This document shows positions 3,832 through 11,797 of a stretch of 37,545 bases of DNA, piece by piece. Position 1 is the stretch's first letter. Each line of letters starts with the position of its first letter. Both the position numbers and the translations under genes were made by a program. Origin of the DNA: Bacillota bacterium. GTDB lineage: Bacteria; Bacillota; Clostridia; Peptostreptococcales; Anaerovoracaceae. The notes under the pieces were generated by a model that worked only from the letters and a program-made list of their open reading frames with translations, made no database searches and had not been told where the DNA came from. The DNA lies in contig JAQXSU010000129.1 of assembly GCA_029219125.1 (NCBI GenBank), forward strand, positions 1 to 37,545. Reading direction: 5' to 3'.

Positions 3832-4009
3832 TTTTCATGTTCTTTCTTTCCGGTATCTGCCGGATCGAGAGCTAAGAGGGAAGCAGGTGAGATTCCTGCA
3901 CGGTACCCGCCGCTGTATGGGAGGAGTTCCGGCCGGATGCCACTGGAAACGCAGTTTCCGGGAAGGTGGTCGGGATGATGATACCTGAGTCAGAAGACCT
4001 GCATGAAAA
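3832..4009 (+). ncRNA. Cobalamin (adenosylcobalamin-type) riboswitch aptamer
   Basis: Conserved core: AGAGGGAAgcaGGTGAGATTCCTGCaCGGTaCCCGCCGCTGT ... GCCACTG ... GGGAAGGtggtcgggaTGATGAtaCCTGAGTCAGAAGACCTGC; possible P1 TTTTCATG/CATGAAAA. Confidence 0.93.
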
Positions 4010-4061
4010 AACTGTAGGCCGCGGTGACTCGGCTGAATCAGAGAAAAGCATTGAAAAAACG

Positions 4062-4089
4062 GGCTGCAGCTTTTGCTGCAGCCTTTTTT
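4062..4089 (+). terminator. Expression-platform terminator of the cobalamin riboswitch
   Basis: GGCTGCAGC-tttt-GCTGCAGCC-TTTTTT. Confidence 0.9.
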
Positions 4090-4118: not shown

Positions 4119-4988
4119 ATGGACGAAAAAGAACTGGAAAAGCAGCTGAAAAGAAAGAAACTGCGAAAATACATTATACTTGCCCTGGCAGCTGCCATGG
4201 CAGTTTACGGCATCGTACACCTGACCGTGGAGGGAAAGGATGCAAAGCTGGCTGACGGACAGGGAAACCTTCCGGTGGCAGAAAGCCTGACTGCGGACGG
4301 AGACGCTGACAACAGCAGGTCAGAGACAGAAGAAAACGGAAAGAACGAAGAAGGCAGCGATGCGGAAGACGAGACTGCTTCCGGGCAGAAGGATGAGAAA
4401 ACAGAAACTAAGGGCAGTGCTTCCGGAAGCAGCGGATCAGAATCTGCGAAAAAAGATCCTGCCGGAAGCAAGGATGCCGGCGGCAAGACTTCACAGGAGC
4501 TGAAGGTTGACAACAGTGAAGATCCTACGGCTTCCAACAGCGGCAACAGCGCGTATCGGCCGAAGGAGCCGGAGAATGTGACGGTGACCATCAGCATCAG
4601 TTGTGCGACCCTGGCCGGTGACATGAGCAAGCTGGAAAATCCGGCGATCCGGGATTACATTCCGGAGGACGGGTGGATCCTGAAAACCGTGTCTTACGCA
4701 GGGACGACAGAGAACACCGTGTTTGATGTGCTCAACACCGTCTGCAGGAACAATGACATACAGCTGGAATTCAGCTATACGCCGCTGTATGAATCCAATT
4801 ATATTGAAGGTATCAATTATCTGTATGAGTTTGACGGCGGAAACCAGTCCGGGTGGATGTACAAGGTGAACGGATGGTTCCCGAATTACGGCTGTTCTTC
4901 CTATTATCTCAGCGACGGGGATGTGATCGAATGGGTCTATACCTGTGATCTGGGAAAAGATGTGGGAGACAATTCCATGGCAGAGTGA
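4119..4988 (+). CDS. Membrane-anchored DUF4430 (transcobalamin C-terminal-like) protein
   Basis: N-terminal KRKKLRK + TM YIILALAAAMAVYGIVHLTV, ~100-aa acidic/Ser/Gly linker, C-terminal DUF4430-like fold (TTENTVFDVLNTV ... YIEGINYLYEFDGGNQSGWMYKVNGWFPNYGCSSYYLSDGDVIEWVYT). Confidence 0.85.
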   Translation: MDEKELEKQLKRKKLRKYIILALAAAMAVYGIVHLTVEGKDAKLADGQGNLPVAESLTADGDADNSRSETEENGKNEEGSDAEDETASGQKDEKTETKGSASGSSGSESAKKDPAGSKDAGGKTSQELKVDNSEDPTASNSGNSAYRPKEPENVTVTISISCATLAGDMSKLENPAIRDYIPEDGWILKTVSYAGTTENTVFDVLNTVCRNNDIQLEFSYTPLYESNYIEGINYLYEFDGGNQSGWMYKVNGWFPNYGCSSYYLSDGDVIEWVYTCDLGKDVGDNSMAE

Positions 4989-5007: not shown

Positions 5008-6285
5008 ATGATGAAGAAAAAAGCAATCTCCATACTTCTGATTCTGGCTCTGGTGCTGACACTGTGTCTGGGCAGTATCGGCAGCGTATCGGCTGCCTCC
5101 TACAGCGGAACGAAGACCATCATGGAAAAGATCGGCAGCAGTCTGTATGCGAAAGTGAAAACACCGGCATTCGGCTCCATCGGCGGAGAGTGGCTCATGT
5201 ACGGCTTCGCAGAAGCGGGCTTCAAGCTGCCGGATACTTATGTGAAGTCCTATCAGCAGACCGTGGAACAGGCGCTGGAGGACGGATACCGGGGACAGAA
5301 GGGAATTCTCCATGACAGAAAATATACGGAGTATTCCCGGGTCATCATCGCATATTCCGCACTGGGGCTGGATCCGACCAATATCAGCGGATATAACATG
5401 GTGGAGAAGCTTGCGGATTTTGAGAAGGTTATCTGGCAGGGAATCAACGGACCGATCTGGGCACTGCGGGCCCTGGACAGCGGAGACTACTCGGTTCCAA
5501 AGGTCAGCGGAATCGAGAATGTGACGACCCGCCAGAAGCTGGTGGACTATATCCTGGAAAACCAGCTGTCGGACGGCGGCTGGGATCTCGGCGGCAAAAC
5601 GGCGGATCCGGATCTGACGGCCATGGCACTGGAATCACTGGCGCCGTATTATCAGCAGACGAAGGTAAAGAAGGCCATGGACAGCGCTATCAGCTGCTTA
5701 TCGAAGATGCAGCAGGCAGACGGCGGCTATGCCAGCGTCGGCACCGCCAATCTGGAAAGCTGTGCCCAGGTGGTCAGTGCACTGTCCAATGTGGGGATCA
5801 ACGTCAATGCGGACAGCAGATTTAAGAAAAACGGCAAGTCGGTCCTCGATGCCATGCTGACCTATTACGATGAAAAAGAAGGCGGCTTCCGCCATGTGAA
5901 TTCAGCCGGCGGCGGGTATGAACCTGTCGTAAATCAGATGGCGACAGAGCAGGGCTATTACGCTCTGGCACAGTATTTTGAGAATGTACCGGGTCAGATT
6001 ACCGATGTGAAAGTGTCCAGCCCGAAGGCGAAAAATCTGAAGGTATCATGGACCAGTCAGAAAACGGCAGACGGCTATCAGATCGTGATTGCGTCCAACA
6101 GCAGCTTTACGAAATCCGTGAAGAAAACGACGGTATCGGCCGGCACTGCCAAAACCCGGACGAAAACCATCTCCGGCATGACGAAAGGAAAAACATATTA
6201 TGTGAAAGTACGTGCATATAAGACTGTAAACGGCAGGAAGGTGTACGGACTGTACAGCAGCGTGAAGAAAGTGACTGTAAAATAG
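5008..6285 (+). CDS. Secreted prenyltransferase/squalene-cyclase-repeat (alpha/alpha barrel) protein with C-terminal fibronectin type III domain
   Basis: Signal peptide MMKKKAISILLILALVLTLCLGSIGSVSAAS; repeats such as LVDYILENQLSDGGWDLGG, ISCLSKMQQADGGYA; C-terminal Fn3 (ITDVKVSSPKAKNLKVSW...YYVKVRAYK). RBS AGGAAGG upstream of 5008; the 4945 start is an upstream extension. Confidence 0.85.
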   Translation: MMKKKAISILLILALVLTLCLGSIGSVSAASYSGTKTIMEKIGSSLYAKVKTPAFGSIGGEWLMYGFAEAGFKLPDTYVKSYQQTVEQALEDGYRGQKGILHDRKYTEYSRVIIAYSALGLDPTNISGYNMVEKLADFEKVIWQGINGPIWALRALDSGDYSVPKVSGIENVTTRQKLVDYILENQLSDGGWDLGGKTADPDLTAMALESLAPYYQQTKVKKAMDSAISCLSKMQQADGGYASVGTANLESCAQVVSALSNVGINVNADSRFKKNGKSVLDAMLTYYDEKEGGFRHVNSAGGGYEPVVNQMATEQGYYALAQYFENVPGQITDVKVSSPKAKNLKVSWTSQKTADGYQIVIASNSSFTKSVKKTTVSAGTAKTRTKTISGMTKGKTYYVKVRAYKTVNGRKVYGLYSSVKKVTVK

Positions 6286-7197
6286 ATGAAAGAAATTCTG
6301 AAACAGGGACTGGGGGAAAGCAGCAGTTTTGCATCATTCCATCCCGCCGTAAACTTCATATATTTCGCCATTGTCATCGGGATTACCATGTTCAGCATGG
6401 ATCCGGTGTTTCTGGCTGCGACGCTGGCTGCGGGGTGGTTCTGGTCTCTGGTGCTTTCCGGAAAGAAAGCGCTGAAGTTCAATCTTCTGCTGACATTGCC
6501 CATCGTAATCGTCATGGCTGTGGTAAATACATTGTTCACCCATAACGGAGCGACGGTGCTGTTTTACCTCAACGGCGGCAGAATCACCCTGGAGGCCTTC
6601 CTGTACGGGCTGGCTGCAGCTGCCATGATTTCGGCGGTCATTATCTGGTTTTCCTGCTTCAATGTGGTCATGACGTCGGATAAATTTATTTATCTGTTCG
6701 GAAAGGCGGCGCCTGTGCTGGGACTGACCCTTTCCATGGTGTTCCGGTTTCTGCCGCTTCTCAAAACCCGCTATCAGGAGATCTCCATGGGGCAGAAGTG
6801 TATGGGACGTCATGGGCAGAAAGGGCTCCTGGCCAGGGCAAGGCAGACGGTGAAGGAGGTTTCCATACTGATTTCCTGGTCCCTGGAGGCATCCATTGAA
6901 ACATCAGACTCTATGGAAGCGCGAGGATATGGTCTGCCGGGGAGGACAAGCTTTCATCTGTTCCGGTTTACTCACAGGGACAGAAATCTGCTGCTTGCAC
7001 TGCTGGCAGCAGGGCTTCCGGCGGCGGCCGGATGCATGGCGGGGCTGACCTCGATTTATTATTATCCTAAAATTGCACTTTCATGGGAACCGCTGAAGTT
7101 TGCGGTGCTGGCAAGTTACATCATATTGCTTCTGCTGCCCGCTGTGATTGATTTATCAGGAGAAAAGAAATGGCAAGCATACAAATCCGAAATCTGA
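6286..7197 (+). CDS. ECF transporter transmembrane T component (EcfT/CbiQ family)
   Basis: Polytopic; EcfT-type motif SMEARGYGLPGRTSFH; directly followed by the fused A component. Confidence 0.88.
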   Translation: MKEILKQGLGESSSFASFHPAVNFIYFAIVIGITMFSMDPVFLAATLAAGWFWSLVLSGKKALKFNLLLTLPIVIVMAVVNTLFTHNGATVLFYLNGGRITLEAFLYGLAAAAMISAVIIWFSCFNVVMTSDKFIYLFGKAAPVLGLTLSMVFRFLPLLKTRYQEISMGQKCMGRHGQKGLLARARQTVKEVSILISWSLEASIETSDSMEARGYGLPGRTSFHLFRFTHRDRNLLLALLAAGLPAAAGCMAGLTSIYYYPKIALSWEPLKFAVLASYIILLLLPAVIDLSGEKKWQAYKSEI

Positions 7198-8939
7198 CCT
7201 TTACCTATCCGCTGGCAGATCATCCTGCTCTGAAGCAGGTGAACCTGACGGTGAGCCAGTCTGAGTTTATCGTGGTCTGCGGCAAATCCGGCTGCGGCAA
7301 AAGCACGCTGCTGAGGCAGCTGAAAAAAAATCTGACGCCCTTCGGAGACAGAGAGGGAGAGGTGCTCTATCGCGGGACGGAGGTCAGCGAACTTCCGGAC
7401 CGTCTCAGTACCACCGACATCGGTTTCGTCCAGCAAAATCCGGACAACCAGCTGGTGACGGACAAGGTATGGCATGAACTGGCATTCGGTCTGGAGAGTC
7501 TGGGGCTTTCCAACAGTGCGATTCGCAGACGTGTGGCGGAGATGGCCAGCTTTTTCGACATGCAGAGCTGGTTCAGAAAGGGCGTGGCGGAACTTTCCGG
7601 CGGTCAGAAACAGCTTCTGAACCTGGCATCTGTGATGGTGATGCAGCCGAAGGTTCTGATTCTGGATGAACCGACGTCACAGCTGGATCCCATTGCCGCA
7701 GAGGAATTTCTCAAGACAGTATATAAGATCAACCGGGATCTGGGAACTACGGTGATTATCTCTGAGCACCGGCTGGAGGATCTGATCCCCATGGCGGACC
7801 GGGTGGTGGTCATGGATGGAGGAAGGATTCTTGCGGACGACAGTCCGTGGAAGATCGGCGACTTTCTGGCAGGAGATACGCCGGAAACAAGGCATCCGAT
7901 GTTTTACGGGCTCCCATCGGTGATGAAAATTTACTCAGCCTGCGGCGGCAGCAGGATGGAAAGAGGACTGAAGAGAAGCGAGGACGGAGAGCGGATCGCA
8001 CCGCTGACCATCCGGGACGGCAGACTTTGGCTGGAAGCAGTTCTGGGAGAGCCGGATGAGTCGAAACCGTTTGACATACAGGAGGAAAGCGAATCCCTTT
8101 CTCCGGCACAGGATCCGAAGAAAGAGGAGACTTCCATTCTGACTATGAAGGACGTATGGTTTCAGTATGACCGCGGCAGTGAGCCGGTGCTGCGGGGGCT
8201 GAACCTGGATGTGAAAGAGGGAGAGCTTTTCTGCCTGATGGGAGGAAACGGCGCAGGAAAATCCACGACGCTGAAGGCAGCCGCAGGGATTCTGAAGCCA
8301 CAGCGGGGAAAGGTGACGGTAGACGGACTGACGGTGACGAAGGATAATCTGCCGAAGCTTTCCGGCAGCATCATGGCCATGGTACCGCAGAATCCGCAGG
8401 CGTTGTTCACGGAGATCACGGCAGAGGAGGAACTGGCAGAAGCACTGTATTACCGAAAAATTCCGGAGGCGGAAAAAGCAAAGCGTGTGCGGGAGATGCT
8501 GGATACCATGGAAATCAGCCATCTGGCAAAAACACACCCCTATGATCTTTCAGGCGGTGAGCAGCAGCGGCTGGCCCTGGGAAAGATTCTGCTTCTGGAG
8601 CCGAAATTGCTTCTGCTGGATGAACCGACAAAAGGACTGGATCCATTCTTCAAAATCACGCTGGCGAAAATTTTCGACCGGCTGAAGGCAGATGGCATGA
8701 CGTTGTTCATGGTGTCTCATGATGTGGAATTCTGTGCGCAGTACGGAGACCGGTGCGCCATGTTCTTTGACGGTGAGGTGGCTTCCCAGGGCTGCGCACG
8801 GGAATTTTTCGCGGGAAACAGTTTCTACACCACGACCGCAAACCGGATCGTACGTCAATGGAACAGCAGTCTTGTCACATGGGAGGAGGTGGCTGCATGG
8901 GCAGAACAGAATATGATCCCATCCGAAGAAAGGCAGTAA
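7170..8939 (+). CDS. ECF transporter energy-coupling ATPase, fused A1-A2 (two ABC domains)
   Basis: Two Walker A motifs (GKSGCGKSTLL; GGNGAGKSTTL), two signatures (LSGGQKQ; LSGGEQQR) and two Walker B motifs. Confidence 0.93.
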   Translation: MASIQIRNLTFTYPLADHPALKQVNLTVSQSEFIVVCGKSGCGKSTLLRQLKKNLTPFGDREGEVLYRGTEVSELPDRLSTTDIGFVQQNPDNQLVTDKVWHELAFGLESLGLSNSAIRRRVAEMASFFDMQSWFRKGVAELSGGQKQLLNLASVMVMQPKVLILDEPTSQLDPIAAEEFLKTVYKINRDLGTTVIISEHRLEDLIPMADRVVVMDGGRILADDSPWKIGDFLAGDTPETRHPMFYGLPSVMKIYSACGGSRMERGLKRSEDGERIAPLTIRDGRLWLEAVLGEPDESKPFDIQEESESLSPAQDPKKEETSILTMKDVWFQYDRGSEPVLRGLNLDVKEGELFCLMGGNGAGKSTTLKAAAGILKPQRGKVTVDGLTVTKDNLPKLSGSIMAMVPQNPQALFTEITAEEELAEALYYRKIPEAEKAKRVREMLDTMEISHLAKTHPYDLSGGEQQRLALGKILLLEPKLLLLDEPTKGLDPFFKITLAKIFDRLKADGMTLFMVSHDVEFCAQYGDRCAMFFDGEVASQGCAREFFAGNSFYTTTANRIVRQWNSSLVTWEEVAAWAEQNMIPSEERQ

Positions 8940-9934
8940 AAAAGCGTACTGCAGTTTCTGCGGTGCTGATCTTTCTCGTCATTCCGGTAATCATCGGTCT
9001 GAGCACGATGCTGGACGGCGGAAGCCTGTATATGCTGGGGAGCCTTGCTGTGGTCATCTGCTGCATGGCTCCGTTTTTCATGGTGTTTGAAAAACGGAAG
9101 CCGAAAGCACGGGAGATTGTGCTGGTGGCCATGATGAGTGCCATTACTGTGGCAGCGCATATGTTTTTTCACGTGACAGTACCGCTGCAGATCGGTACTG
9201 CCATGGTTATCATCGCAGGAATTTCCATGGGACCGGAAGCCGGATTTCTGGTAGGGGCACTTTCGAGATTCATCTGCAACTTCTATATGGGCCAGGGACT
9301 GTGGACGCCATGGCAGATGTTCTGCTGGGGACTTCTGGGATTTCTGGCAGGGCTGGCATTTAACAAGGTGGATCTGACGAAGACGACGGATCAGGTGAAG
9401 TCCCGGAGCTTTCATGTGATCATGGGTCCTGTGCTCTGTATGATCGCAGCAGAAGTGGCGGCGTTTGTGACGTTTCTGCTGTGGCCGGGAAGCGAAGCAA
9501 TGGACCTGACCGGCGGTACTTTTTCCGGATTTATGGATGCACTGGGACAGGCAGATGGGCTGCAGGGTATATTGAATGTGCTTGGTATGGTCATCGGATG
9601 GCGGTTTTATGCTTTCGGTGCTGCCGGCCTGATTGCCGGCGTGCTGCTGCAGAGAAAACGGATGCCGGTAGATAACCTGACACTGACCATCTTCACATTC
9701 TTTACAACGGTGATTCTGTATGGAGGACTGATGAACCTCTGTGCCATGTTCACCTCTGCCGGCATCCCGGGCGGCGGCGGAATCAGCTGGAATACGCTGC
9801 GGCTGCTTTACATTACGGGGCTGCCGTATGACCTGGTACATGGTGCAGCAGCGGCGCTGTGCATTTTTCTCATCGGAAATCCCATGATACGGAAAATCGA
9901 GCGAATTAAGATCAAATACGGAATCTATAAATAG
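8897..9934 (+). CDS. ECF transporter S (substrate-binding membrane) component, likely cobalamin/cobamide-specific
   Basis: Polytopic membrane protein with S-component-like AGISMGPEAGFLVGALSRFICNFYMGQG; GGGAGGAGGT RBS 6 bp before ATG 8897; overlaps the A gene. Substrate inferred from the riboswitch. Confidence 0.78.
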   Translation: MGRTEYDPIRRKAVKKRTAVSAVLIFLVIPVIIGLSTMLDGGSLYMLGSLAVVICCMAPFFMVFEKRKPKAREIVLVAMMSAITVAAHMFFHVTVPLQIGTAMVIIAGISMGPEAGFLVGALSRFICNFYMGQGLWTPWQMFCWGLLGFLAGLAFNKVDLTKTTDQVKSRSFHVIMGPVLCMIAAEVAAFVTFLLWPGSEAMDLTGGTFSGFMDALGQADGLQGILNVLGMVIGWRFYAFGAAGLIAGVLLQRKRMPVDNLTLTIFTFFTTVILYGGLMNLCAMFTSAGIPGGGGISWNTLRLLYITGLPYDLVHGAAAALCIFLIGNPMIRKIERIKIKYGIYK

Positions 9935-9953: not shown

Positions 9954-10745
9954 ATGAAGGACCGCATATTTATCGCGACCTTTTCAGACAACGCAGTTTC
10001 GGTGATCCGCAGTTATGGAGTGGGGATTGAACTGAACGATCTGTGCATTTCAGAAAATCTGGATCCGGAGCGGCTGCAGACCACAACGGATGCCATACGG
10101 GAGGAAATCCGCAGTTCCGGCGCAGGAGCGCAGCAGATCATTGCCCATGGACCGTTTACGGAGATCTGTCCGGCCTCCATCGATCACAGAGCGGTGGAGA
10201 TGGGAAGAAGGCGGCTGGATGAGGCGTGGAACGTTCTGCAGGACCTGGGAATCTGCAGGATGGTGGTACATACCGGCTATATCCCTCTGATCTATTATCC
10301 GCAGTGGCAGCTGGAAAAGTCCATTAAATTCTGGAAAGACTTCCTGAAAGATAAACCTTCTGATTTCAGATTATATATTGAAAATGTATTCGAAGATTCA
10401 CCGGAGCAGCAGCTGCAGCTGATCCGCGGGCTGGATGATCCGAGAGTTTCTGCCTGCCTGGATGTGGGTCATGCCCATGCGGTCACGCGGCCGGAATATC
10501 CTGTCTGCCGTTGGATCGAAGAACTGGGACCTTTCATCGGACATTTTCATCTGCACAACAATGATGGAAAGCAGGATCTGCACAGTCCGCTGACGGAAGG
10601 AAACATGAACATGGAAGAAGTGCTCCGTGCCATCGGTACATACTGCAGCCCGGATGTCACCATGACCATTGAAAGCAGAAGCTGTGAAGACAGCGTGCGG
10701 TGGCTTCTGCAGCAGGATAAGCTTCTGCATATGGCAAATTGCTGA
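9954..10745 (+). CDS. TIM-barrel (AP endonuclease 2/xylose isomerase-like) protein; candidate cobamide-remodelling hydrolase CbiR
   Basis: Family-like metal-site segments (VVHTGY, YIENVFED, CLDVGHAH, HFHLHNNDG, TIESR); 20 bp downstream of the ECF S gene in a cobalamin-riboswitch operon. CbiR assignment is contextual. Confidence 0.75.
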   Translation: MKDRIFIATFSDNAVSVIRSYGVGIELNDLCISENLDPERLQTTTDAIREEIRSSGAGAQQIIAHGPFTEICPASIDHRAVEMGRRRLDEAWNVLQDLGICRMVVHTGYIPLIYYPQWQLEKSIKFWKDFLKDKPSDFRLYIENVFEDSPEQQLQLIRGLDDPRVSACLDVGHAHAVTRPEYPVCRWIEELGPFIGHFHLHNNDGKQDLHSPLTEGNMNMEEVLRAIGTYCSPDVTMTIESRSCEDSVRWLLQQDKLLHMANC

Positions 10746-10774
10746 TTGCTATCTGTACTTATATCATGTATAAT
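10746..10774 (+). promoter_or_regulatory. Putative internal promoter for the Cys-rich gene
   Basis: TTGCTA, 17 bp, TATAAT. Confidence 0.5.
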
Positions 10775-11158: not shown

Positions 11159-11797
11159 ATGTTTCTGGGGATTATCGGAAGCGGAACCATGGGAGCGGTT
11201 CTGCGGGATTATGCGAAAGAAGACGGAACGTTTGATGAGATCGTGATGCTGGAACCTTTATCGGATCAGCCCTGGCCGGAAAAACGGCCGGATCTCCTGG
11301 TGGATTTCAGTCATCCGAAAGCGATCGGAAGGATTTATGATTACTGCCGGAAAAAAGGGGGTAATATACCGGTAGTTCTGGCATCCACCGGATACGGACC
11401 GGAGGAGGAAAAGCTGATCCAGCTGCTGGAAAAAATCTGTCCCCTGGTGCGGAGCAGCAATTTCTCCAGAGGTATGGAGGTCATGAACCGTCTGTGCCGT
11501 GAGGCGAAAAAGGAACTGGGTGATCAGTGTGACATCAGGATGACAGAAGCACATCATACGAAAAAACAGGACCGGCCCAGCGGTACGGCGGTGAGTCTGT
11601 GTCGTGTGCTTGGACTGGATCCTTTTGATGAGAGCCAGGTGCAGAGCCTTCGTATGGGCAGTGTCTGCGGCCAGCATACAGTGTATTTCGCACTGGAGGA
11701 TGAGATTCTGGAGATACGCCATACGGCCATGTCGAAGAAAATTTTCGCCATTGGTGCGCTGGAGGCAGGAAAAAAACTCATGAAGGAATTGACTTGA
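11159..11797 (+). CDS. dapB: 4-hydroxy-tetrahydrodipicolinate reductase
   Basis: N-terminal GIIGSGTMG nucleotide-binding motif; catalytic EAHHTKKQDRPSGTA. Confidence 0.88.
   Translation: MFLGIIGSGTMGAVLRDYAKEDGTFDEIVMLEPLSDQPWPEKRPDLLVDFSHPKAIGRIYDYCRKKGGNIPVVLASTGYGPEEEKLIQLLEKICPLVRSSNFSRGMEVMNRLCREAKKELGDQCDIRMTEAHHTKKQDRPSGTAVSLCRVLGLDPFDESQVQSLRMGSVCGQHTVYFALEDEILEIRHTAMSKKIFAIGALEAGKKLMKELT

Follow-up and report, generated by a model that had tools for sequence, protein, structure and literature searches.

A riboswitch-controlled B12 operon in a clostridial genome ends in a TIM-barrel gene for a probable CbiR-like cobamide phosphodiesterase

The window studied here is a stretch of 37,545 nucleotides from a gut bacterium of the Anaerovoracaceae, contig C129 of a 2.14-Mb assembly that is 86% complete. 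From the riboswitch to the promoter-like site behind the barrel gene, the features described below lie on its + strand. A cobalamin riboswitch aptamer (RF00174, positions 3834-4020; 101.9 bits, E = 1.4e-24, a full-length model match) controls a B12 operon that ends in the gene of interest, which encodes a TIM barrel. Directly after the aptamer comes a terminator-like hairpin of ten pairs, seven of them GC, with a TTTTTT tail (4061-4084), which is a probable attenuator. The operon then continues with genes for a DUF4430 protein with an N-terminal membrane segment (4119-4988; PF14478, E = 2e-19), a secreted alpha/alpha-toroid-like protein with FN3 (5011-6285; fn3 3.7e-6, weak SQHop_cyclase_C and Prenyltrans matches for the toroid), the ECF transporter T component EcfT (6286-7197; PF02361 CbiQ, E = 3.3e-6), a fused double ECF ATPase, EcfA-EcfA' (7170-8939; two ABC_tran stretches, TIGR04520 at 365 bits), and an ECF S component (8858-9934; PF07155, E = 5.4e-17; PF12822, E = 4.9e-8). 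Riboflavin- and folate-type models match this S component, all below their NCBIfam cut-offs. The transporter presumably carries cobamides, since a B12 riboswitch lies upstream and the gene context in relatives points the same way.

Both the DUF4430 protein and the toroid-FN3 protein have a putative role in corrinoid capture, and they form a candidate bacterial capture pair. Side by side, they are reminiscent of the two-domain make-up of animal intrinsic factor and transcobalamin, and the transcobalamin C-terminus is reported to contain DUF4430 (PMC4350170). The pair recurs across ECF operons that have B12 riboswitches.

The barrel gene (9954-10745) starts 20 bases past the S-component stop, with 19 bases in between, and a Shine-Dalgarno-like GGGAGGA lies just 5' of its ATG. 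An earlier note on this DNA had described an AP-endonuclease-2-like TIM barrel 20 bp after an importer gene. This description holds: the open reading frame is intact and encodes 263 amino acids, and Pfam AP_endonuc_2 (PF01261) matches with E = 1.9e-22 and 80.6 bits against a gathering cut-off of 31.1, which places the protein in that superfamily. The gene looks constrained, because its differences from a 74%-identical homologue amount to 0.19/0.17/0.41 at the three codon positions.

A promoter-like site, judged by consensus match only (TTGCTA-17-TATAAT, 10 of 12 positions), occupies positions 10746-10774 and thus begins right after the barrel stop. The genes beyond it are therefore probably a separate unit, and the barrel gene probably closes the B12 operon. 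The first of them encodes a Cys-rich small-domain protein (PF04071, 10820-11095) that adjoins the barrel gene at locus L031 as well and lies close to it in the riboswitch-rich locus L036; it is possibly B12-linked too. The second (11159-11797) encodes a DapB-like protein of 212 amino acids. Its model match starts only at about position 70 and scores 117.8 against an NCBIfam cut-off of 122, as for an N-terminally short dihydrodipicolinate reductase.

AlphaFold2, drawing on 39 relatives, predicts a barrel with confidence (mean pLDDT 96.3, pTM 0.93). The best Foldseek matches of this model in the PDB are TTHB071, MJ1311 and E. coli endonuclease IV, all barrels of AP_endonuc_2 type. Alignment with endonuclease IV (Nfo) rows identifies nine metal ligands of the endonuclease IV type that never vary within the B12-linked clade (H65, H106, E143, D170, H173, H199, D208, H210 and E240), and which we take to form a tri-metal site as in the E. 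coli enzyme. Further residues are near-invariant and particular to this clade: E26, E70, Y114, W118, W127, W187, H197 and H201. The AP_endonuc_2 barrel and the conserved His, Asp and Glu metal-site residues are shared with CbiR. Adjacency to cobamide genes, a third mark of CbiR, is found in relatives (about 20 loci), while the window gene itself adjoins transport genes.

Gene neighborhoods in relatives were compared using open reading frames called by a simple script, neighbor clusters identified with Pfam (CobT, CobU, CobS, a short CobU-like protein and a histidine phosphatase of CobC type), and an Rfam riboswitch scan of nearly all family loci; some loci lie on short contigs. In 21 loci, Vescimonas included, the barrel gene belongs to or adjoins a cobT-cobU-cobS-cobU'-cobC operon on the same strand, usually as the first gene, and in most of them it overlaps cobT or is separated from it by 0-160 bp. 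At L062, cobT is missing and cobU directly follows the barrel gene, and at L065 the operon is interrupted. Judged by coordinates, the gene lies within 6 kb of cobS in 20 of the 41 carrier genomes. A second context places it among ECF and DUF4430 genes, the arrangement seen in the window (L031, L039, L056, L064, L068, L075 and others). In a third, comprising about nine loci, it stands alone some 170-220 bp behind a B12 riboswitch, usually with pcrA and ligA downstream (L032, L034, L035, L036, L037, L040, L057 and L061); L033 is similar, but one gene intervenes. Locus L072 unites the first two contexts on one strand: a B12 riboswitch is followed by DUF4430, toroid and ECF genes, the barrel gene and cobT-U-S-U'-C. 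B12 contexts change at least 11 times on the tree. Thirty-six of the 44 family rows have such a context, and the other eight lack a clear one.

Several features of these neighborhoods deserve separate mention. The short CobU-like gene between cobS and cobC (about 125 codons; L149:3303-3680, L041:5320-5700 and many other cob loci) aligns chiefly with the C-terminal portion of the CobU model and accompanies a full-length CobU in nearly every cobT-U-S-U'-C operon. In seven third-context loci (those listed above except L035), the barrel gene with its own B12 riboswitch stands directly before pcrA and ligA, where read-through would bring these DNA replication and repair genes partly under B12 control. 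Gene lengths at seven loci had suggested a link to methylmalonyl-CoA mutase, but the genes proved to be pcrA, ligA and one for an AIR-synthase-type protein, and the idea was dropped. In an intermediate sister clade, the barrel gene of L131 comes immediately after a radical-SAM gene and a LigB/AMMECR1 gene, and the neighbors at L129 match these in lengths and order.

Of 149 genomes sampled from the family of the window, 41 carry a homologue of the barrel gene. Outside the family it is much rarer: among 342 genomes of the class, 10 have it at E <= 1e-28, and of these ten, four are themselves Anaerovoracaceae, the window's own genome included. One homologue occurs in Vescimonas (Oscillospiraceae). 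Members of the class at 30-34% identity outside the family had no cob neighbors, and distant homologues on plasmids (24-29% identical) are found close to sugar, ABC-transport or glycerophosphodiester genes. Scans of viral contigs with the window protein, and of plasmids and viral contigs with the L078 protein (see below), found nothing.

CobS occurs in 71 of the 149 family genomes and in 40 of the 41 barrel carriers; the sole exception is an assembly that is 70% complete. The Fisher probability of this co-occurrence (p = 1.2e-15) overstates the independent evidence because the sampled genomes are kin, and the repeated switches of context make the stronger case. The barrel gene is found in none of the 75 family genomes that lack both cobS and cbiB. 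Among the CobS-positive carriers, 25 of 40 have CbiB, and 15 have cobS with cbiB and cbiC both missing. A step that yields cobinamide-phosphate would be useful to these 15, and they fit such a step. Among CobS-positive genomes, carrying the barrel gene does not correlate with missing CbiB (p = 0.80), so the gene cannot be viewed as a mere stand-in for de novo synthesis.

Emergencia (Anaerovoracaceae) is among the close relatives of the window genome. The earlier note had proposed a search of this genome for nucleotide-loop genes, and the search succeeded: cobT, cobU, cobS, the short cobU-like gene and a cobC-like gene form one operon on another contig (C294, locus L149), with no barrel gene in front, and cbiB is present as well. 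In two genomes of the same genus (G028 and G106), the barrel gene lies inside that cob operon (L042 and L044). Since the window genome has cbiC in addition to cbiB, it may make corrinoids de novo, and remodeling is not obviously essential to it. Synthesis, import and remodeling may coexist here, as is reported for some Akkermansia strains (PMC7733943). Cobamide-dependent enzymes are encoded in the genome too: a MetH-like corrinoid/pterin methyltransferase, whose domains bind pterin and B12, a protein resembling ornithine 4,5-aminomutase and, next to MutL, a small B12-binding protein.

The most satisfactory explanation, which we hold with reasonable though not high confidence, is that the barrel protein is a divergent, clostridial, CbiR-like cobamide phosphodiesterase that cuts imported cobamides for rebuilding. 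CbiR hydrolyses the phosphoribosyl bond, after which cobT, cobS, cobU and cobC are needed for remodeling in E. coli (PMC7733943). A reaction of this type is proposed for the barrel protein because the same gene set adjoins its family. As a metal-dependent enzyme, it would cut (adenosyl)cobamides in the nucleotide loop as CbiR does. The presumed products are cobinamide-phosphate and the alpha-riboside of the lower ligand; substrate, bond and products are all modeled on CbiR. CobU, CobT, CobS and a CobC-type phosphatase could then rebuild the corrinoid with the preferred lower ligand of the cell. Under B12 scarcity, the riboswitch would allow the barrel gene to be expressed together with the capture and ECF import genes, such that foreign cobamides are imported and stripped. 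The earlier note called CbiR an AdoCbi/AdoCbl hydrolase, which needs a minor correction: the published enzyme turns AdoCbl into AdoCbi-P and alpha-ribazole (PMC7733943) and does not hydrolyse AdoCbi.

It is rather unlikely, yet deserves some weight, that the barrel protein acts in the nucleotide-loop pathway on another compound, such as an alpha-riboside or its phosphate, a cobamide-5'-phosphate or Cbi-GDP. It would then be a phosphodiesterase, phosphatase or isomerase that serves CobT or CobS and does not degrade complete cobamides. The position of the gene directly before cobT in about 20 loci would suit such a role, as would its retention alongside de novo corrin genes in the CbiB-positive carriers, and not only phosphodiesterases but also isomerases and epimerases belong to the superfamily (PMC7733943; Foldseek). 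However, the cob operon already ends in a CobC-type phosphatase, and the loci where the gene stands with import genes, or has a B12 riboswitch to itself, better fit the handling of incoming corrinoid. The full set of nine ligands points to phosphodiester chemistry, though several proteins encoded next to sugar transporters share it.

We consider it improbable that the protein is truly orthologous to A. muciniphila CbiR and has diverged past the profile cut-off. Among NCBIfam models, CbiR (NF041277) matches the window protein best, and every one of the 41 family members matches this equivalog model. With 36.7 bits, the window protein falls far short of the cut-off of 105, which no family member reaches; the best of the 41 has E = 2.5e-14 and about 53 bits. 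Proteins with no visible B12 neighborhood do as well or better. The L078 protein (L141:7441-8250), encoded next to a PHP-domain gene and a sugar-type ABC transporter, reaches 154 bits, the L080 protein reaches 100 bits beside ABC-transporter and FAD-oxidoreductase genes, and several epimerase-like proteins score 45-59 bits. Scores of 37-53 thus carry little functional information, and the equivalog model may over-call. L078 was dropped as a CbiR anchor because its neighbors include no cobamide genes.

In a quick maximum-likelihood tree, the family and intermediate sequences from other contexts group together (99 SH-aLRT), and both Nfo and the better hits of the CbiR profile fall elsewhere. The two hits above the cut-off in the phylum are uncertain stand-ins for CbiR, and this tree, which has long branches and contains no characterised CbiR, does not place the clade relative to the real enzyme. 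The nearest outgroups of the family lie in non-B12 contexts, so activity cannot be transferred by homology. The identification with CbiR itself in the earlier note is thus not sustained: the barrel likely works like CbiR but is no CbiR by profile.

A sugar isomerase or epimerase that lies in B12 operons by chance is very improbable. The fold, weak profile and structure matches to epimerases of the fructoselysine/tagatose type, and the distant plasmid homologues near sugar and glycerophosphodiester genes would agree with it. Chance association accounts poorly for B12 contexts that recur across so many switches on the tree, or for the absence of the gene from genomes without cobS and cbiB. A cobamide role coupled to uptake, which the earlier note preferred to sugar metabolism, is supported by the riboswitch operon, the cob adjacency and the very strong co-occurrence with CobS. 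Identity with the DNA repair AP endonuclease, endonuclease IV, is scarcely credible and was rejected despite the nine conserved ligands and the pcrA and ligA genes downstream in several loci, because the genome has its own Nfo (G000:C234, 273 bits), those loci have a B12 riboswitch directly before the barrel gene, and the protein reaches no Nfo cut-off (TIGR00587), scoring 30 bits on the deoxyribonuclease IV model against 244.

Cobamide cleavage by the barrel protein would have consequences beyond this operon. We suggest tentatively, at somewhat less than even confidence, that a second lineage of remodeling phosphodiesterases arose in the AP_endonuc_2 superfamily separately from CbiR, mainly within one clostridial family, and that some species wired it to a riboswitch-controlled capture and import operon that strips foreign cobamides on entry. 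Lower-ligand exchange determines which B12 analogues can be used by which gut bacteria. According to the 2020 CbiR paper, CbiZ, CbiR and certain CobS proteins are the only characterised bacterial remodeling enzymes (PMC7733943), so Clostridia without CbiZ or a recognisable CbiR would be scored as plain salvagers. If this clade does strip cobamides, B12 remodeling can be predicted for dozens of gut Clostridia, models that derive cobamide sharing from genomes have to be revised, and a whole functional group escapes the present CbiR profile.

Among known systems, the nearest solved structures by sequence and fold are MJ1311 (PDB 3wqo; E = 9e-17) and TTHB071 (3ayt/3ayv; E = 3e-6), although these are only 22-23% identical to the barrel protein. 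A possible cobalamin-cluster link of TTHB071 lends no support: its homologue on a T. thermophilus plasmid has sugar genes and surE for neighbors, and a cobyric acid synthase gene is some 7 kb distant. Endonuclease IV shares the superfamily and the nine aligned ligands, but Nfo rows form a separate clade with support of 100. The ECF-CbrT vitamin B12 transporter, which carries cobalamin and cobinamide (PMC5997447), resembles the window operon in the ECF-type corrinoid import presumed for the latter. In contrast, the S component of the window matches other ECF-S families and sits with DUF4430 and toroid capture proteins and the barrel gene.

The amidohydrolase CbiZ would likewise start lower-ligand exchange on salvaged cobamides, but its sequence is unrelated to that of the barrel protein. 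CbiZ (PF01955) was found in none of the 149 family genomes, and its model does not match the window protein. CbiZ cuts the amide bond next to the aminopropanol (PMC7733943), so its product needs re-attachment by CbiB. The 15 carriers that lack CbiB could not use such a product, whereas cobinamide-phosphate would be usable directly via CobU. The closest functional parallel is CbiR of Akkermansia muciniphila (Amuc_1679; mBio 2020, PMC7733943), which has the same fold and His/Asp/Glu metal-type ligands, adjoins cobT, cobU and cobS, is frequently linked to transport genes and occurs in genomes without CbiZ. The barrel family differs from it in a sequence far under the curated cut-off, in its restriction mainly to one clostridial family and Vescimonas, in the gene order barrel-cobT-U-S-U'-C, and in its place in ECF operons led by B12 riboswitches.
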